In this document: in pieces, positions 1,225 through 8,526 of the stretch
How the letters are laid out: each line of letters begins with the position of its first letter
How positions within the stretch are numbered: the stretch's first letter is position 1
Assembly: GCA_030016455.1 (NCBI GenBank)
Contig: JASEJH010000015.1
Coordinates: forward strand, 1-10,572
Direction of reading: 5' to 3'
Length of the DNA stretch: 10,572 nt
Origin: Thermoanaerobacteraceae bacterium
Lineage (GTDB): Bacteria; Bacillota; Desulfotomaculia; Desulfotomaculales; Ammonificaceae
The notes under the pieces: generated by a model
Database searches by the model: none
What the model saw: the letters and a program-made list of their open reading frames with translations, nothing else
Told to the model about the DNA's origin: nothing
Program-made: the position numbers and the translations under genes

Positions 1225-2358
1225 CTAATCGAGCGTCTTCCGGAAGCGCAGTGCAGCCAGGAGAAGCGTACCGCAGCCAAAAGCCACCAGGACAACCGCC
1301 TGGGTAAGGAGAAGATCCAGCCCCGCGCCCTTGAGGATCACGCCGCGCAAAACCTCGAGGAAATAGGTGAGCGGGATGAAATTGCCCAGCCAGCGGATTA
1401 CCAGGGGCATCGCCTCCCGCGGAAAGACGAATCCCGAAAGCAGGACGCTGGGGAGGATGAGTCCCATCGTTGCCTGCATCGCCTGCAGCTGGGTGCGCGT
1501 TACCGTGGAGATGAGCAACCCCAGGCCCAGCGCCCCGAGAAGGAAGAAAAGCGCCAGCACGGCCAGGAGCAGCACGTTGCCGGCCACCCCGACGCCGAAC
1601 CAGAAGGTACCCACCAGGAAGATCAGGGACACGTCAATAAAGGCGATGACCACGTAGGGGATGAGTTTGCCGATCACCAGCTCCGCAGGCCGCACCGGGG
1701 TCACGATCAGCTGCTCGAGCGTGCCCCGCTCCCGCTCGCGCACCAGGGCGAAGGCAGTCAGCATCGCGGTGATGTTCTGCATGATCAGCCCGATCAGTCC
1801 GGGAATGAAAAACCGGGCACTCTCCATGTTCGGATTGTACCAGACCCGGGAGCGGAAATCAACGCCGGCGGTAAGCGGTACGGTTTTCCCACTCCGGTCA
1901 AGCGCCGCCAGCATGAGCTTGCTCGAATGAACGCGGGCCACCAGTTCCCCGGCCTGCAGCGCCGTGCGGGCGGTGGTCGGGTCGCTGCCGTCAACAATGA
2001 ACTGCACGGGCGCCGCCTCCCCCCTTGCAAGGGTCCGGCCGTAGCCGGCGGGAATGATTAATCCCGCCTTTACCCTGCCGCTGGTGATCAGCCGCTCCAG
2101 CTCCTGGCGGCTCACCGGATAAGCCGTGAGCTTGAAGTACCCGGAGGCTGCGAAGGCAGACGCCAGTTCCCGGCTGGCCCGGGTGCGGTCGCCGTCCAGC
2201 ACCGCAGTCCGGATTTCGTCCACGTCCATGGTCACGGCGTAGCCGAAAAGAAAGAGCATCATCACCGGCAAGAGAAAGCTGATCACCAGGCTCGGCCTGT
2301 CTCTCCTGATGTGCAGCACCTCTTTTTTCACGATGGCCCACAGCCGCATGAGCCGCAT
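1225..2358 (-). CDS. ABC-2 type transporter permease (YbhS/YbhR/DrrB-like)
   Basis: This is the membrane subunit of an ABC exporter. It has about 377 residues: an N-terminal cytoplasmic stretch, a first membrane helix (about 23-43), a large extracytoplasmic loop (about 45-175), then five hydrophobic segments to the C-terminus. The motif RERERGTLEQLIVTPVRP (about residues 209-226) is the cytoplasmic signature of ABC-2 permeases. The architecture matches YbhS/YbhR-type drug or xenobiotic exporters. The gene follows the ATPase with no gap: ATG at 2358 has a GGGGGG ribosome binding site 6 bases upstream, and an adjacent GTG at 2361 overlaps the ATPase TAG. Only one permease is present, so it presumably homodimerises. 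Substrate cannot be read from sequence. Confidence 0.92.
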   Translation of the reverse strand: MRLMRLWAIVKKEVLHIRRDRPSLVISFLLPVMMLFLFGYAVTMDVDEIRTAVLDGDRTRASRELASAFAASGYFKLTAYPVSRQELERLITSGRVKAGLIIPAGYGRTLARGEAAPVQFIVDGSDPTTARTALQAGELVARVHSSKLMLAALDRSGKTVPLTAGVDFRSRVWYNPNMESARFFIPGLIGLIMQNITAMLTAFALVRERERGTLEQLIVTPVRPAELVIGKLIPYVVIAFIDVSLIFLVGTFWFGVGVAGNVLLLAVLALFFLLGALGLGLLISTVTRTQLQAMQATMGLILPSVLLSGFVFPREAMPLVIRWLGNFIPLTYFLEVLRGVILKGAGLDLLLTQAVVLVAFGCGTLLLAALRFRKTLD

Positions 2359-2360
2359 CA

Positions 2361-3113
2361 CTAACCCCCCAGCGCTTCCCGGTCCAGAGTCCTGCCCCGT
2401 CGTGCCAGGGCGATAAAAACATCCTCCAGCAACAGCGCGCCTTCAGCGGCTTTCAGCTCCTCCGGCGGGCCGATGGCCAGGAAGCGCCCCCGGTACATAA
2501 AAGCCAGGCGGTGACACTGCTCCGCCTCGTCCATGTAGTGGGTCGTCACCAGCACTGTAACGCCCTTCGCCGCCAAGCCGCGGAGGATGTCCCAGAACTC
2601 CCGCCTGGAAACGGGATCCACCCCGGCGGTGGGTTCGTCCAGGAAAAGCAGCCGCGGGCGGTGTACCAGCGCGCAGGCGAGGGCCACGCGCTGTTTCCAG
2701 CCGCCCGAAAGGGTGTGCACCAGGGCCCGGGTCCGTTCTCCCAGCCCGGTGGAGGCAGCGGCCACAGCGATCGCTTCCTCCTGTTTCTCCGGCGGCACCG
2801 TGTAAATGCTGGCGTAAAACTCCAGGTTTTCCCGTACGGTCAGGTCCTCGTAAAGGCTGAAACGCTGCGAGACGTACCCGATGCTCCCCTTTATGCGCTC
2901 CGCCTCCCGGGCGATGTCGTAACCCAGCACCTCGCCGCGTCCGTCGGAGGGCCGGAGAATGCCGCACAGCATCCTGACCGTGGTTGACTTCCCGGAGCCG
3001 TTCGGTCCGAGGAGGCCGAAAATCTCTCCCTCCTCCACCCGGAAGCTGATGCTGTCCACCGCCGCCAGGTCTCCGAAGCGCCGGGTCAGGTTTTCGACGA
3101 TGATGGCCGCCAC
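2361..3113 (-). CDS. ABC transporter ATP-binding protein
   Basis: This 250-residue nucleotide-binding subunit powers the neighbouring permease. All catalytic elements are present: Walker A GPNGSGKST (36-44), Q-loop Gln83, signature LSGGWKQR (135-142), Walker B LLFLDEP (155-161) and H-loop His192 in TTHYMDEAE. The TTHYMDEAEQCHR segment and length are typical of the DrrA/NatA/YbhF family of ABC-2 exporters. Unlike E. coli YbhF, which has two fused ATPase domains, this is a single domain and would act as a homodimer. It starts at GTG 3113, five bases after the adaptor stop, with GGAGGAG at the end of the adaptor gene as ribosome binding site. It is co-transcribed with TetR, adaptor and permease. 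Confidence 0.95.
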   Translation of the reverse strand: MAAIIVENLTRRFGDLAAVDSISFRVEEGEIFGLLGPNGSGKSTTVRMLCGILRPSDGRGEVLGYDIAREAERIKGSIGYVSQRFSLYEDLTVRENLEFYASIYTVPPEKQEEAIAVAAASTGLGERTRALVHTLSGGWKQRVALACALVHRPRLLFLDEPTAGVDPVSRREFWDILRGLAAKGVTVLVTTHYMDEAEQCHRLAFMYRGRFLAIGPPEELKAAEGALLLEDVFIALARRGRTLDREALGG

Positions 3114-3118
3114 TGTCC

Positions 3119-4153
3119 CTACTTCTCCTCCAGTACTACGTTGGCGGGCATCCCCGGCTTCAGCAGGCCCGCCCCTTTTTCTACGGCGACCCGTACGGCA
3201 AAAACGGTCTCGGCCCTTCCCTCGGGCGTCTGGACGTTCCGGGGGGTGAACTCCGCCTCCGGAGCGATGTAAACAACGCGTCCGGGAAACTTCTTGCCCG
3301 GGTAGGAATCAACCGTGATCGCCGCCCGCTGATCCAGGTGAACCCGGCCGATCTCCGGCTCGGGAATGAAGATCCTGACCCACAGCTCGTCGAGCCGGGA
3401 GAGGGTGAAAGCCGCCGTTCCCGGAACCACCGTTTCACCCACCTCCACCAGGCGCCCGGTCACCGTGCCCGCCACCGGAGCCTTGAGCACCGTCCGGTCG
3501 AGGTTGAGCCGCGCCAGGTCCCGCGCCGCCCGTGCCTGGACCACGGCCGCTTCGAGGTTACGGATGGCCTCCCTCGTAGCGCCGGCCTGCACCAGGTCAA
3601 GCTGGGCGCGGGCGGCCGCAGTGGCCGCCTGGCGCGCCGCCAGCTGCTCGGCCGCGCTGTCCCGCGCGTCCCGGGCGGCGTCAACCTGTTGCGCCGGAAC
3701 GGCTTCCTGTGCGTAAAGCTCCTCCAACCGCTCTAACTCCCGTTCCGCTGCGGCCAGCGCGATCTCCGCCTGTTTCTCGGCGGCCTCCGCCTGCTTCACG
3801 GCAGCCTGCGCCGCGCGGACCTGTTGCTCCCGCGAGCCGGCCTTTATCTCCGCCAGCCGGGCCTCGGCGGCGGCCAGGGCCCCCTCGGCCTGCGCAAGCT
3901 GCAGACGCGCCGCAGCGTCATCCAGCCGTGCCAGCACCATGCCAGGCTTCACCCGGTCCCCCTCCGCAACCGCGAGGTGTTCGACCCGGCCTCCCACCTC
4001 AAAGGCCAGCCGGACCTCGGTGGCCTCGATGTATCCGGAAGCCGTTAGCCCCTCCGGCTCACCCCGGTAGACCGTGAGGTAGTAATACCCGCCGATGCCG
4101 GCGGCAAGCAGGAGCATGACTAGAACGATCCCGATTTTCTTTCTACCGGCCAC
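3119..4153 (-). CDS. HlyD/YbhG-family membrane-fusion adaptor
   Basis: This 344-residue periplasmic-adaptor protein bridges the ABC permease to the cell exterior. A signal anchor lies at about 8-30 (IGIVLVMLLLAAGIGGYYYL). The first lipoyl-like half follows (about 38-78, GYIEATEVRLAFEVGGRV). A long Ala/Glu/Gln-rich coiled-coil hairpin spans about 79-215. The second lipoyl half (about 222-252, LKAPVAGTVTGRLVEVGE) and a beta-barrel region complete it. The stretch FTPRNVQTPEGR is typical of YbhG/MacA-like adaptors. It starts at GTG 4153 and overlaps the TetR gene by 11 bases, indicating translational coupling. In a single-membrane organism it would work without TolC; the window does not show which cell envelope applies. 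Confidence 0.92.
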   Translation of the reverse strand: MAGRKKIGIVLVMLLLAAGIGGYYYLTVYRGEPEGLTASGYIEATEVRLAFEVGGRVEHLAVAEGDRVKPGMVLARLDDAAARLQLAQAEGALAAAEARLAEIKAGSREQQVRAAQAAVKQAEAAEKQAEIALAAAERELERLEELYAQEAVPAQQVDAARDARDSAAEQLAARQAATAAARAQLDLVQAGATREAIRNLEAAVVQARAARDLARLNLDRTVLKAPVAGTVTGRLVEVGETVVPGTAAFTLSRLDELWVRIFIPEPEIGRVHLDQRAAITVDSYPGKKFPGRVVYIAPEAEFTPRNVQTPEGRAETVFAVRVAVEKGAGLLKPGMPANVVLEEK

Positions 4154-4730
4154 GGTCTCTCACCCCGTCTAGATAAATGGTGGTGATGGTCTCCAGCACC
4201 TCTTCCTCGTCGAACCGGACGTATTTGTCCCCGCCGAGGAACTCCTTCCAGATGACGAAAATCCCGAGCATTCCCATCAGGCACCTGATGGCGATCTGGG
4301 GGTTCAGCGGACGCAGGTTGCCCTGCTCCTGCTGCTGCCGGTAAAAGGCCTCGGCCCTTGCCGTGGCCCGGAGCACTACCTCCTCGATGAACTTTTCGCG
4401 CAGGTCTTCCCGGAAAAGGGCTTCCGCGAAGAAGAGCTTTAAAAGCGGCGCGTTTTCCTTGATCAGATCAAGCCGGTTACGGAGAATGTCTTTAATAGCG
4501 TCCTCTATGGTTCCGGTTTCAATTCGCTCCAAAAGTGCAGGTAGCGACTCCATCACCAGCGAAGCCACAACGCTGACCAGCAGGTCCCTCTTAGTTGGAA
4601 AATAGCGAAAAATCGTCCCCTCGGCGACCCCGGCTTCCCGGGCGATTTCGGCAGTGGTGCTCCGCTCAAAACCCTTCCGGGCGAAAACCCTGCCCGCCGC
4701 AGCAAGAATCTCCCGGCGCCGCTCTTCCAC
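4143..4730 (-). CDS. TetR/AcrR-family transcriptional regulator
   Basis: This is the local repressor of the efflux operon. The N-terminal TetR helix-turn-helix is clear: REILAAAGRVFARKGFERST, then TAEIAREAGVAEGTIFRYF and TKRDLL. A helical ligand-binding C-terminal domain follows. Length is 195 residues from GTG 4730, which has an AGAAGG ribosome binding site 6 bases upstream. A GTG at 4760 would add 10 residues (205 in all), but it lies about where transcription should begin and would be almost leaderless, so I prefer 4730. The 3' end overlaps the adaptor start. A palindrome at 4772-4787, between the -35 and -10 of the operon promoter, is the expected autoregulatory operator. The inducer is unknown. 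Confidence 0.92.
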   Translation of the reverse strand: MEERRREILAAAGRVFARKGFERSTTAEIAREAGVAEGTIFRYFPTKRDLLVSVVASLVMESLPALLERIETGTIEDAIKDILRNRLDLIKENAPLLKLFFAEALFREDLREKFIEEVVLRATARAEAFYRQQQEQGNLRPLNPQIAIRCLMGMLGIFVIWKEFLGGDKYVRFDEEEVLETITTIYLDGVRDRGR

Positions 4731-4767
4731 AGCCCGCCTTCTTTCCTGGATTGCCGACACCCCCTAA

Positions 4768-5080: not shown

Positions 5081-5329
5081 GTAATGACCGCAGCCTCAAA
5101 TCCGTGCGGTTAACCCGTAAGCCGCGCTATATGAACCCTGTGCTACTATTCCGCTCCGGCAGGGGTCCGCCGGAAGCACCCCCAGGTGGCAGTTCATTCA
5201 ACAAACCTCTTCCCATGTTTTCCCGGTGACTTTTCTTGATCAACAATTTGCTTTGCCATGCAGACCGCCTCACTGTCTTCAGTGTGTTGCTATGTTTTTA
5301 ATGCCAGACCAAAATGAAAAATTCTATTC

Positions 5330-5359
5330 TTGTCAGCGGCACCGCAGCCCTGCTATAAT
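5330..5359 (+). promoter_or_regulatory. Sigma-A extended -10 promoter of the PadR-WtpA/TSUP operon
   Basis: -35 TTGTCA (5330-5335), 18-bp spacer and perfect -10 TATAAT (5354-5359), with the extended -10 TG at 5351-5352. Predicted start is near 5366, giving a leader of about 40 bases to the ATG at 5406. Confidence 0.85.
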
Positions 5360-5374
5360 CAATTTAAAAGTATA

Positions 5375-5385
5375 TGCATAATGCA
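5375..5385. promoter_or_regulatory. Candidate operator just downstream of the start site
   Basis: TGCAT-A-ATGCA is a perfect 11-bp inverted repeat in an AT-rich context (TATATGCATAATGCAAATA). It lies about +10 to +20 relative to the predicted start and directly before the AGGAG ribosome binding site (5389-5393). It is a plausible site for autoregulation by the PadR domain encoded next, but the match is short. Confidence 0.45.
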
Positions 5386-5405
5386 AATAGGAGAATGATG
5401 TAGGT

Positions 5406-6659
5406 ATGCCTGAGCGGGATGACTTGGACAATGAACACTCGGTCTACGCCGCCTACCTCCGGGGCGAACGGTTGCTGCATCCCGGGCTGCTGCTGCTTCT
5501 CGCCCGGCACCCCATGCACGGGTACGAACTCATCCAGTCGTTGAACCAGCTTTCCTTCACATCTGAGGAGTGCGACCCGGCGACGGTCTACCGTAACTTG
5601 CGGCGAATGGAGGAAGACGGCCTGGTACATTCGGAATGGCAGGCCGGCGAATCCGGCCCAGCACGGCGGGTTTACTACTTAACGGCCAACGGAGAACACC
5701 TCCTCGAGATGATGGCAGCCAATGCACAGCGCCGCCGTGAACAGCTTGAGGCCTTCCTAAGACTATTTACGGTAATCCATTCAGCGGGCAGCATCCCCGC
5801 GGAAAACCTCCGGAAAGAGGCGGAGGGGGAAAAGAGCGAATCCCAAAAGGAGGCTCTACACATCCTACACGCCGGAGCATTACGCGGGCCTCTTAAAGAG
5901 TGTGCCCGGGTATTCCAGGAAGCCCATCCCGGTACGGTTCTAACGCTGCAGGCCGCCGGCTCCCGGGAGTGCGCGCGCCGACTGCGCCGGGGGGAACAGG
6001 CCGATGTGATCGCCCTGGCCGACCCCGCTGTTTTCACCGAACTCCTGGAGCCGGAGATTGTATCCCGCTGTTTCGTCTTCGCCACCGACCGGATCGTCCT
6101 CGCCTTTGAAGAATACTCCCGGGGCCGAGATTCCCTCACAGAACACAACTGGATGGACATCCTCCTCATGAATCAGGTAACCTATGCCCGTTCAGACGAG
6201 AATCTGGACCCTTGCGGCTACCGAACGCTGATGGTCTGGCAGTTGGCCGAAGATTTCTACCACCGGCCGGGCCTCTACGACCGGCTTTGCGCCAGGTGCC
6301 CGCGGGAGAGAATCGCACCCAAGTCTATCGACCTGGTAGAGTTGCTCATCCAGGGCCGCGTGGACTACGTTTTTGTTTATTCTTCGGTGGCGGCGCAGTT
6401 CGGCCTGCAGCACCTCACCCTGCCCCGGGAAATCGACCTCTCCAGCCCGGCATTTGCCCAGCGTTATAATGCGGCAACAGTCACAGTAGAAGGGCGGCAA
6501 CCTGGTGAAACGGTGACGCTCCGGGGAGCGCCGATCGAGTTTGCCATCGGCATCCACCGGCAAACCAGGCACCCCGGCCCGGCGCAGGCATTCCTGGATT
6601 TTGTGCACGGGCGCGCCGGACAGGCGATCCTGGAAAGCTACGGGTTAATTCCTTGTTAA
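5406..6659 (+). CDS. PadR-type regulator fused to a WtpA/ModA-like tungstate/molybdate-binding domain
   Basis: The protein has 417 residues. Residues about 24-120 form a PadR winged helix: LLLLLARHPMHGYELIQSL, then PATVYRNLRRMEEDGLV and RRVYYLTANGEHLL. A charged linker (about 121-149) joins a periplasmic-binding-protein fold (150-417) of the WtpA tungstate/molybdate type. Evidence is HAGALRGPLKE (155-165), AAGS (183-186), RGEQADVIALAD (195-206), the hallmark RSDENLDPCGYRTL (262-275) and YSSVAAQFGL. There is no signal peptide, so the binding domain is cytoplasmic and likely serves as the sensor of a one-component regulator. ATG 5406 has AGGAG 12 bases upstream, a rather long spacing. It is co-transcribed with the TSUP transporter 16 bases downstream. 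The ligand is inferred from family, not shown. Confidence 0.88.
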   Translation: MPERDDLDNEHSVYAAYLRGERLLHPGLLLLLARHPMHGYELIQSLNQLSFTSEECDPATVYRNLRRMEEDGLVHSEWQAGESGPARRVYYLTANGEHLLEMMAANAQRRREQLEAFLRLFTVIHSAGSIPAENLRKEAEGEKSESQKEALHILHAGALRGPLKECARVFQEAHPGTVLTLQAAGSRECARRLRRGEQADVIALADPAVFTELLEPEIVSRCFVFATDRIVLAFEEYSRGRDSLTEHNWMDILLMNQVTYARSDENLDPCGYRTLMVWQLAEDFYHRPGLYDRLCARCPRERIAPKSIDLVELLIQGRVDYVFVYSSVAAQFGLQHLTLPREIDLSSPAFAQRYNAATVTVEGRQPGETVTLRGAPIEFAIGIHRQTRHPGPAQAFLDFVHGRAGQAILESYGLIPC

Positions 6660-6675
6660 GAAAGGAGTATGCGGC

Positions 6676-7644
6676 ATGTATTTTCCGGTCTCGGGCGTGG
6701 AAGTTTTTCCGCTGATTCCCCCCTTGGTGGCCTTCGCCGTTTCTTCGGTAACCGCATCCGCCGGTGTCTCCGGCGCTTTTCTGCTCCTGCCCTTTCAGGT
6801 AAGCGTTCTGGGCTTCGTCAGTCCGGCCGTCAGCCCCACGAACCTCATCTACAACATCGTGGCCATCCCCGGGGGGCTCTACCGGTACATAAGGGAAGGG
6901 CGGATGGCCTGGCCCCTTACCTGGATCGTGATCCTTGGCACCCTCCCCGGAGTCTTTGCGGGGGCGCTGATCCGCATCCGCTACCTTCCCGACCCGCGTG
7001 CCTTCAAGTTCTTCGTGGGTCTGGTGTTGCTCTACCTCGGAGCGCGGTTGCTCTACGAAGCGACCGGGCGCTACCGTAAGGGACGGGAACAGCAGCGCGC
7101 CCTGGAAAAGAAGTTCCGGGAACGTGTACGGCAGCAGAAGGAAGCGACGCGGAGCCGCCTGGCCGCCGGGCTGCCGGCAGAAGCAGTAGTGCGGACAAAG
7201 TCGGTATCCCTATCACGCATTGAGTATGAATTCTGGGGTGAAACCTTCTCCTTCAGCACCATCACCATCTTCAGCCTTGCCCTTGTTGTCGGGCTGGTCG
7301 GTGGTATATACGGCATCGGCGGCGGGGCCATCATCGCCCCCTTTGCGGTGGCCGTCCTCGGCCTGCCGGTGTATACTGTGGCCGGCGCCGCGCTGGCCGG
7401 AACCTTCTTGACCTCCATCGCCGGGGTAGCCTTTTTCGAAATCCTGGCCCTTACTCCCCTCGGCGCCGAAAGGGTGATCCGGCCAGACTGGGCGCTGGGG
7501 ACGCTCTTCGGGGTAGGAGGGCTGGCCGGCACCTACGTTGGCGCCCGTTTCCAGAAGTACCTGCCGGAGCAGTGGATCCGGGCAATGCTGAGCCTCCTGG
7601 TTATTGGCCTGGCCCTCCGGTATATCTTCGAATTCTTTGCTTGA
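6676..7644 (+). CDS. TSUP (TauE/SafE-like) membrane anion transporter
   Basis: This 322-residue multi-pass membrane protein has two hydrophobic halves, about 10-130 and 199-322. They are separated by a strongly charged linker of about 65 residues (roughly 134-198, rich in Arg, Lys, Glu and Gln). The second half carries the TSUP glycine motif VGGIYGIGGGAIIAP; the first half has the weaker ASAGVSGAFLLLP in the matching place. TSUP proteins move sulfite, sulfonates, thiosulfate or other organic and inorganic anions. A strong AAAGGAG ribosome binding site (6661-6667) lies 8 bases before ATG 6676, only 16 bases after the PadR-WtpA stop, with no promoter between. The transporter is therefore the likely target of that sensor. 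Substrate is unknown; an oxyanion is inferred. Confidence 0.88.
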   Translation: MYFPVSGVEVFPLIPPLVAFAVSSVTASAGVSGAFLLLPFQVSVLGFVSPAVSPTNLIYNIVAIPGGLYRYIREGRMAWPLTWIVILGTLPGVFAGALIRIRYLPDPRAFKFFVGLVLLYLGARLLYEATGRYRKGREQQRALEKKFRERVRQQKEATRSRLAAGLPAEAVVRTKSVSLSRIEYEFWGETFSFSTITIFSLALVVGLVGGIYGIGGGAIIAPFAVAVLGLPVYTVAGAALAGTFLTSIAGVAFFEILALTPLGAERVIRPDWALGTLFGVGGLAGTYVGARFQKYLPEQWIRAMLSLLVIGLALRYIFEFFA

Positions 7645-7691
7645 CGCCTGCCGCAACAGAGTGGAGGCCTGAAACACTTTCAAGCTTAACG

Positions 7692-7730
7692 CGAGAAGCC
7701 GTGAGTCGGCCCACGGCTTCTCGAAAAAAA
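7692..7730. other. 12-bp hairpin with A7 run in the convergent intergenic region
   Basis: CGAGAAGCCGTG (7692-7703) and CACGGCTTCTCG (7712-7723) pair perfectly around an 8-nt loop, between the ends of the TSUP gene and ymdB. Seven A residues follow on the plus strand (7724-7730). On the minus strand the T7 therefore precedes the hairpin, and neither direction shows the usual hairpin-then-U order. For ymdB, a weak CCC/GGG stem at about 7731-7749 just before the T7 could give poor termination. It probably still separates the two convergent transcripts. Confidence 0.6.
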
Positions 7731-7746
7731 CCCCGCTGTAAAGGGC

Positions 7747-8526
7747 TCACGCCTCGAAATTTCGAATCCGCTCGATTCCCAGCGCCTTTCCGGTTACCGG
7801 GTCTATGGTAACGACGCAGGCGTCAAACTGGTAAGGCCCGCCCGCCACCTCGAACCGCTTGGGAAGTTGCGTCACGTATTTGGCGATTATGGTCTCTGTT
7901 TTCACCCCGATCACCGAGTCGCGCGGTCCGGTCATTCCCACATCGGAGATGTAGGCCGTGCCTCCCGGTAGGACACGTTCATCCGCAGTTTGCACATGCG
8001 TATGTGTGCCCAGGACCGCCGATACCCTTCCGTCCAAGAACCACCCGAAAGCCATTTTTTCCGAGGTAGCCTCGGCGTGGAAATCCACCACGATCACCGG
8101 CGTCACCGCCGACAGCTCGGCCAGGATTTCCTCTGCCCGGCGGAAAGGGCAGTCTACGCCAGGCATGAAAACCCGCCCCAGGAGGTTCACCACCGCCACC
8201 TTACAGTCCCCGACCGGGAAAACCCGGTAACCGGCGCCCGGAACCTCCGGCGGGTAGTTGGCCGGCCGGATCAGCCGGGCCTCCTCAGCGATGAAGGCGT
8301 AACTTTCCTTTTTATCCCAGATGTGATTTCCGCCGGTCAAGACGTCAATCCCGTAGCCGAAAAGCTCGTTCGCCGTTTCGCGGGTGACGCCGTTGCCGCC
8401 GGCGATATTTTCCCCGTTCGCAATGGTGAAGTCAATCCCGAACTCCTGCCGAATGGCCGCCAGGTTCTCTTTTACCGCCCGGCGGCCCGGGCGGCCGACT
8501 ATATCTCCGATCATCAGGATACGCAT
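7747..8526 (-). CDS. ymdB: YmdB-family metallophosphoesterase (2',3'-cyclic nucleotide phosphodiesterase)
   Basis: The 259-residue protein, close to the 264 residues of B. subtilis YmdB, matches the TIGR00282 metallophosphoesterase family. Metal-binding motifs are in place: GDIVG with Asp8, NGEN with Glu39 and Asn40, GNHIWD with Asn67 and His68, DFHAE with His150, and GTHTHVQT with His175 and His177. In B. subtilis YmdB hydrolyses 2',3'-cyclic nucleotides and influences biofilm and motility gene expression, possibly by acting with RNase Y. ATG 8526 follows the rny stop by 15 bases and has GAGG upstream. The gene is the second of the rny operon, an arrangement conserved across Firmicutes. Confidence 0.96.
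   Translation of the reverse strand: MRILMIGDIVGRPGRRAVKENLAAIRQEFGIDFTIANGENIAGGNGVTRETANELFGYGIDVLTGGNHIWDKKESYAFIAEEARLIRPANYPPEVPGAGYRVFPVGDCKVAVVNLLGRVFMPGVDCPFRRAEEILAELSAVTPVIVVDFHAEATSEKMAFGWFLDGRVSAVLGTHTHVQTADERVLPGGTAYISDVGMTGPRDSVIGVKTETIIAKYVTQLPKRFEVAGGPYQFDACVVTIDPVTGKALGIERIRNFEA

Follow-up and report, generated by a model that had tools for sequence, protein, structure and literature searches.

In LysR-type regulators such as CysB, a winged helix is linked to a cytoplasmic sensor that has the fold of type II periplasmic-binding proteins, and ModE senses through Mop domains. Here, we analyzed a stretch of 10,572 nucleotides (nt), hereafter the window, from a Thermoanaerobacteraceae bacterium (contig JASEJH010000015.1, assembly GCA_030016455.1), in which one gene encodes a PadR winged helix fused to a WtpA-like solute-binding domain and is followed by a gene for a TSUP (TauE/SafE) transporter. 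The fusion protein has the same general layout as the LysR type and differs from it in that its helix-turn-helix (HTH) and its binding domain belong to other families and in that the two parts mostly occur as two separate proteins; a winged helix with a periplasmic-binding-type sensor is a known kind of regulator, of which the PadR/WtpA-like pairing would be a variant. With ModE the fusion protein would share the intracellular, oxyanion-responsive control of transport, although neither the ModE HTH nor a Mop/TOBE domain was present among its family matches at an E value of 0.001.

The WtpA/ModA proteins of A. fulgidus (3cij/2onk), M. acetivorans (3cfx) and P. furiosus (3cg1) share 32–38% identity with the binding domain of the window. 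In contrast to them, this domain has no signal peptide, carries Ser in place of a Glu and Ala in place of the Ser of the HAGS motif, is joined to PadR and is not accompanied by an ABC permease or ATPase of the WtpA/ModA type; no wtpB or wtpC partner is adjacent, the neighbors in the window being TSUP, TetR, HlyD, an ABC-2 exporter pair, YmdB and RNase Y. Another comparable system is ChrI of Bacillus cereus SJ1, a PadR-family regulator of chrA that shares an operon with this chromate transporter, the operon being induced by chromate (PMC2936356); CHR transporters are among the predicted targets here as well. ChrI differs in that its gene comprises 309 bp and in that the available part of that report mentions no solute-binding protein (SBP) partner. 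At the level of the TSUP family, the window transporter resembles the clade B TSUP proteins that are widespread in sulfate reducers (PMC5840216). Control of uptake is physiologically documented in sulfate reducers; the available portion of PMC5840216 names no such regulator, and PadR is unmentioned in its main text. A PadR with a WtpA-like partner and with the present operator and set of targets was not found in the literature searched, which does not establish its absence from print.

Our analyses suggested that the product of the fusion gene is probably an oxyanion-responsive transcriptional repressor that controls its own synthesis, usually built from two proteins and here from one. The PadR half, presumably a dimer as in its family, would bind a 21-bp palindrome at 5370–5390, just past the predicted transcription start, and would block the promoter that serves its own operon and hence the TSUP gene, which is predicted to be regulated within that operon. 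The WtpA-like half would serve as a cytoplasmic Venus-flytrap sensor, and its closure on an intracellular oxyanion may alter the affinity of the PadR half for DNA; the ligand would act either as an inducer, following the exporter logic of ChrI/ChrA, or as a co-repressor, following importer logic. In most of the relatives considered, the same switch would be assembled from two proteins encoded by overlapping or adjacent genes, which are fused in the window lineage and in a second protein, P0008. A wider proposal, possible and on balance doubtful, is that an ABC-importer receptor without export signal became the ligand-binding part of a PadR repressor that consists of two proteins, at times fused, and that this unrecognized switch tunes the transport of sulfate and related oxyanions through TSUP, CHR and MOT1 to the cytoplasmic pool in Gram-positive sulfate reducers.

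The coordinates of the features are collected in Table 1. The initial annotation had described an intact gene of 417 codons that encodes a PadR winged helix and a WtpA-like domain in one chain, has no signal peptide and precedes TSUP by 16 nt, and this was confirmed at 5406–6659. Its further idea, that a receptor-type domain located inside the cell and linked to PadR controls an anion transporter, is supported by the neighboring genes, the operator, the unlinked targets and the two fused branches described below; of its picture of a one-component switch with TSUP, the fusion stands for the window, and the usual form proved to be two adjacent genes with targets that include CHR and MOT1. In a predicted single-chain structure model compared with solved structures, the binding half adopts the closed-WtpA fold, and residues 133–144 of the linker have a predicted local distance difference test score (pLDDT) below 50. 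The match to LysR_substrate was weak (24.7 bits; cut-off, 28). The fused gene evolves under purifying selection, and its PadR half shares 78% amino acid identity over 124 codons with the split PadR of genome G012.

The split pair is the usual form of the system. Among the 120 listed homologues of 295, only the window protein (P0001) and P0008 (397 aa) carry PadR, and the other 118 measure 265–287 aa. The locus set consisted of the best 80 of 268 loci from a scan of public genomes, and comprised 48 pair loci (L027–L074), many of them close kin, so that counts over them are not independent, and 32 others (L075–L106). In all 48 pair loci, a padR open reading frame (ORF) lies directly 5' of the SBP ORF in the same orientation, the gaps ranging from −157 to 63 nt (some starts being over-called). 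With starts taken from the longest ORF, 44 of the 48 SBPs of the pair loci have 8–21 residues ahead of the HAG motif and the remaining four have 35–61; 8–21 residues are too short for a usual signal peptide. The SBPs of the 32 other loci all have at least 27 residues there, many with an apparent signal or lipobox, and no PadR match was found within these loci. In the tree, the cytoplasmic proteins form one clade, split from the 12 sampled secreted ones with support of 100/100; the window fusion is nested among split proteins (support with P0003, 100/88), and P0008 groups with L061 in another branch (100/100). Since the fused forms occupy two separate branches, the fusion would have arisen twice, provided that P0008 is no artefact. 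As judged from these sequences, the fusion is a late and rare form of a conserved two-gene pair. The search for PadR joined to binding proteins and the tally of neighbors that had been proposed initially gave two fused proteins among the 120 listed homologues, pairs in 48/48 loci and a transporter nearby in 44/48. An own-genome paralogue (L001), considered as a candidate secreted WtpA, was set aside, its ORF resembling a different SBP. Two padR-SBP pairs per genome were observed in Desulfoscipio geothermicus DSM 3669 (L057 and L063) and in Desulfosporosinus nitroreducens (L033 and L058), the latter species having TSUP next to one pair and CHR next to the other. Two loci labelled Armatimonadetes (L036) and Actinobacteria (L039) are typical pair loci among Desulfotomaculum-type sequences, and perhaps reflect mislabelled bins or transfer.

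The pair is associated with oxyanion transporter genes. CHR is a chromate and MOT1 a molybdate transporter family, and the substrates of the three families, namely sulfite/sulfate for TSUP, chromate/sulfate for CHR and molybdate/sulfate for MOT1, span a shared oxyanion range. Neighboring transporters were assigned by BLAST, with Pfam checks on examples. A same-strand transporter lies within 420 nt of the pair in 41 of 48 loci (TSUP, 30; CHR, 9, that of L065 being truncated where its contig stops; MOT1, 2), and at 425–1341 nt in three more (TSUP, 2; MOT1, 1), giving 44/48 within 1.35 kb; a TSUP resembling that of the window is found beside the pair in 32/48 relatives. A second, divergent TSUP (24–28% identity) was seen upstream of the pair, besides the close one, at L046 4189–5130, L049 1138–2118 and L072 5883–6821. 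Small ORFs of 73–104 aa occur just before padR in L033 (7375–7596), L035, L037, L040, L057 (2594–2860), L063 (7323–7613) and L070 (7344–7658); those of the L057/L063/L070 group sit near the operator, and the ones scanned (L033, L057, L070) had no Pfam match.

A palindrome, CTATNTGCANNNTGCANATAG, was spotted by eye upstream of padR, and 14 such sites served to build a symmetric weight matrix, with which all loci were scored. The window site (27.5 bits), itself one of the training sites, falls inside the interval 5330–5400 that had been put forward for an operator; it begins 10 nt past the −10 hexamer and ends 15 nt short of the ATG. The window promoter shows 11/12 matches over both hexamers with an 18-nt spacer (one found against 0.7 expected in shuffles). 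The top-scoring site anywhere in the locus lay at −320 to +45 of the first module gene in 43/48 loci (chance per locus, 0.028), and near that gene in 32 of the 37 held-out loci, whose sites were outside the training set; the first module gene is TSUP, not padR, in 17 pair loci. Upstream sites of at least 14 bits were present in 40/48 loci, against 5/48 anywhere in one dinucleotide shuffle per locus. Of the 46 sites scoring 14 bits or more, 33 were accompanied by a promoter with no fewer than 9/12 matches, and in 28 of these 33 the −10 ended 9–15 nt before the operator (mode 10 nt, n = 14; no shuffled control). Such a position just after the −10 box is of the repressor type. The half-site of PadR proper has an ATGT/ACAT form, unlike the TGCA half-site predicted here. 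At L135 (G034:C56), a second, divergent PadR-like gene is followed by permease-like genes, and an operator-like site (19.5 bits) is located 16 nt upstream, facing the pair.

Sites were also found away from the module. When 60 genomes, the own one included, were scanned with a stricter pattern (at most two mismatches to the consensus), 28 sites were detected against 4 for the reversed control pattern. Sixteen of the 28 fell on the module or next to it, 8 were unlinked sites of pair genomes and 4 came from genomes without a pair; in the own genome (80.55% complete), the window site was the sole one. Four of the eight unlinked sites in pair genomes precede oxyanion transporter genes. An unlinked site lies 4 nt before a MOT1 gene in G003, a perfect palindrome 23 nt before a CHR gene in D. 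geothermicus (G023, identical to G070), and others 54 and 75 nt before TSUP genes in G056 and G040, respectively; an unlinked TSUP of G048 has a 22.3-bit site. Among the best 30 of 42 TSUP loci, when any site in the locus that scored 10 bits or more was counted, the operator was present in 17/18 from pair genomes and in 2/11 assessable ones from genomes without the pair (Fisher 5e-5, uncorrected for kinship); several of the pair-genome sites were training sites, the G023 site lay beyond the flank and G002 had no upstream sequence. The two exceptions were L151 (G037) and L157 (G013). G037 has kept PadR beside TSUP with no SBP seen, which would fit a recent loss, and no PadR was seen in G013. 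The genes adjoining the inspected sites included no recognized complete ABC importer for molybdate/tungstate (Mo/W). A lone ABC ATPase in G023 (L171, 6674–7444), divergent from the CHR gene and 389 nt from the site, had WtpC as its best NCBIfam model; it was rejected as a tungstate importer, with a score far under the cut-off (174 vs. 440 bits) and no permease ORF of at least 150 aa beside it.

Several observations weigh against the proposed repressor. The sites upstream of padR that seeded the operator model were picked by eye, and the close kinship of many loci means that the operator counts are not independent. In five of the 48 loci the best site was elsewhere (L050, L054, L043, L062 and L073): the upstream scores were 10.2 bits in L050 and 4.7 bits in L054, the L043 site was 324 nt away, and those of L062 and L073 stood ahead of the downstream TSUP, not ahead of padR; the site of L064 scores 8.5 bits only. 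The pairs of G048 and G040 carry no operator of their own (regional best, 5.3 and 9.4 bits), so autoregulation is not universal. Eight of the 28 sites from the genome scan lie neither at transporters nor at the module, four of them in pair genomes and four in genomes without the pair. A looser pattern gave 79 strand hits in 16 named genomes against 51 for the reversed control, so its hits are mostly noise, and those of good quality fell on the module or on the already-known CHR site. Four pair loci (L048, L054, L057 and L068) have no nearby same-strand transporter, and two of the 30 close TSUP loci (L030 and L074) show a partial TSUP frame only. The presumed contact between split PadR and SBP has the fusions as its sole basis, and P0008 stems from a contig of only 3,444 bp.

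The binding pocket departs from that of the solved WtpAs. P. furiosus WtpA holds tungstate by two carboxylates, Asp160 and Glu218 (PMC10221389). Both WtpA equivalog models of NCBIfam missed their cut-offs on the fusion protein (219 vs. 355 and 197.7 vs. 242.75 bits). Alignment was made to the A. fulgidus protein 3cij, whose Asp and Glu at these positions we take to be metal ligands. The Asp (D268) is kept in 46/48 cytoplasmic and 32/32 secreted proteins, and the position of the Glu is Ser (S307) in 48/48 cytoplasmic proteins and Ser in 17, Glu in 9 and Ala in 6 of the 32 secreted ones. Glu loss was therefore discarded as a mark of the cytoplasmic class and is not tied to relocation, because 17/32 secreted relatives also have Ser. 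Ten positions do part the two classes, among them A158. Asp (D228) stands in the cytoplasmic class where 32/32 secreted proteins have Asn, Arg (R262) in 45/48 where 30/32 have His, Glu (E378) in 48/48 where Val is mostly found otherwise, and Phe (F379) where 32/32 have Tyr. These substitutions suggest that the pocket has been re-tuned, perhaps to a lower affinity as suits an intracellular sensor.

Two versions of the repressor differ in the ligand. It is quite conceivable, falling just short of probable, that the sensor binds molybdate or tungstate and that the regulon governs Mo/W entry or exit: WtpA/ModA is the closest solved family, the metal-site Asp is kept and a pocket carboxylate would be awkward for sulfate and suit a metal centre, the operator is found on MOT1 genes, the MOT1-like proteins of two sulfate reducers are likely molybdate transporters according to the available part of PMC5840216, and the CHR target of G023 has the divergent ATPase that resembles WtpC, though far below the cut-off. 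On the other hand, the missed equivalog cut-offs, the change of the metal-ligand Glu to Ser and that of the HAGS Ser to Ala in 48/48 cytoplasmic proteins speak against it, and tungstate and molybdate, the reading of the initial annotation, are candidate ligands only. Moreover, the recognized targets are TSUP, CHR and MOT1 and do not include a complete ABC Mo/W importer, and ModE-type HTHs below the cut-off occur in 15/26 pair genomes. Such HTHs, all below the cut-off, were found in 31/60 genomes overall, though in 0/8 of the window's family, and the idea that the pair replaces ModE was not supported. Alternatively, the sensor may read sulfate or another sulfur oxyanion (sulfite, thiosulfate) and adjust its transport, as a missing sulfate-handling regulator of Gram-positive sulfate reducers; this is a tenable suggestion that we hold to be rather less than probable. 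The dsrA gene scored over the cut-off in 25/25 pair-bearing relatives (own genome aside), which are sulfate reducers, and the pair was present in 0/12 dsrA-negative relatives (Fisher 0.0006, uncorrected for kinship, some genomes being incomplete), whereas the pocket Asp is kept and TSUP relatives also occur in five dsrA-negative genomes. Sensing of sulfur oxyanions would benefit sulfate reducers, and so would protection from molybdate, which is an analogue of sulfate; the two ligand classes are therefore nearly level.

Apart from the ligand, the cytoplasmic SBP could be a buffer or chaperone for the imported oxyanion, with PadR regulating alone and with adjacency and fusion as operon convenience. 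The scarcity of fused forms (2/120 among the listed homologues) agrees with this, as do G037, with PadR, TSUP and operator and no SBP seen, and the short PadR ChrI, which adjoins chrA with no SBP mentioned in the available part of the report (PMC2936356). However, the pairing in 48/48 loci, the fusions in two branches and the ten class-separating positions render this explanation improbable. It appears very improbable that the window carries an ordinary split pair which errors of sequencing or assembly have joined, even though the nearest relatives are split and the draft genome is fragmented (308 contigs; completeness, 80.55%). Compared with G012 and G003, in which the two genes have an ATGA stop/start overlap, the junction in the window retains neither the stop codon nor the start codon and contains one additional base, and a single-indel artefact was rejected because the junction shows several changes. 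In addition, the cluster of the window protein is also listed on a contig of 116,870 bp, and the second fused protein belongs to another branch.

With the proposed repressor, oxyanion transport in a major group of sulfate reducers gains a candidate regulator, operator and set of targets. It suggests a path from transport receptor to intracellular sensor, in which the export signal would be lost, pairing with PadR would follow and fusion would come last. Furthermore, a common operator on TSUP, CHR and MOT1 makes the substrates of three poorly known transporter families testable jointly, and the fusion, being one protein, could readily serve in ligand screening or as a biosensor for oxyanions.

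Table 1. Features in and upstream of the PadR/WtpA-like fusion gene and of the TSUP gene in the window.
Feature	Position	Strand	Details
−35 hexamer TTGTCA (predicted)	5330..5335	+	promoter scan of 5200–7800
−10 hexamer TATAAT (predicted)	5354..5359	+	promoter scan; extended (TG before); similar arrangement in relatives
Predicted operator GTATATGCATAATGCAAATAG	5370..5390	+	21-bp palindrome; 27.5 bits; conserved in relatives
PadR/WtpA-like fusion gene	5406..6659	+	intact; 417 aa, 417 codons
PadR winged-helix domain, residues 28–100	5487..5705	+	Pfam PF03551; 1e-18; 67.5 bits vs. cut-off 27
Fusion point GAATCCCAAAAGGAG	5838..5852	+	counterparts G012 GAATGAGCGGGGAG and G003 AAATGAACAAAGAA, both with ATGA stop/start overlap
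WtpA-like type II solute-binding domain, residues 150–417	5853..6656	+	without signal peptide
A158, HAGS serine in secreted relatives	5877..5879	+	Ala in 48/48 cytoplasmic, Ser in 32/32 secreted
D268, equivalent of the WtpA metal-ligand Asp	6207..6209	+	alignment to 3cij
S307, Glu in solved archaeal WtpAs	6324..6326	+	alignment to 3cij and M. acetivorans 3k6u
TSUP (TauE/SafE) transporter gene	6676..7644	+	322 aa; PF01925; 7.7e-36; 124.4 bits vs. cut-off 32.6; 16 nt after the fusion gene

Elsewhere in the window, a single run of genes on the minus strand (1225–4760), divergent from the fusion gene, encodes a TetR regulator, an HlyD-type adaptor, an ABC ATPase and an ABC-2 permease, and is a typical efflux-type operon. 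Also on the minus strand (441–1177), a Fic/DOC-type gene (441–869) overlaps a MazE-type antitoxin gene (857–1177) beside two tRNA-Ser genes, and the two genes likely form a toxin-antitoxin pair.

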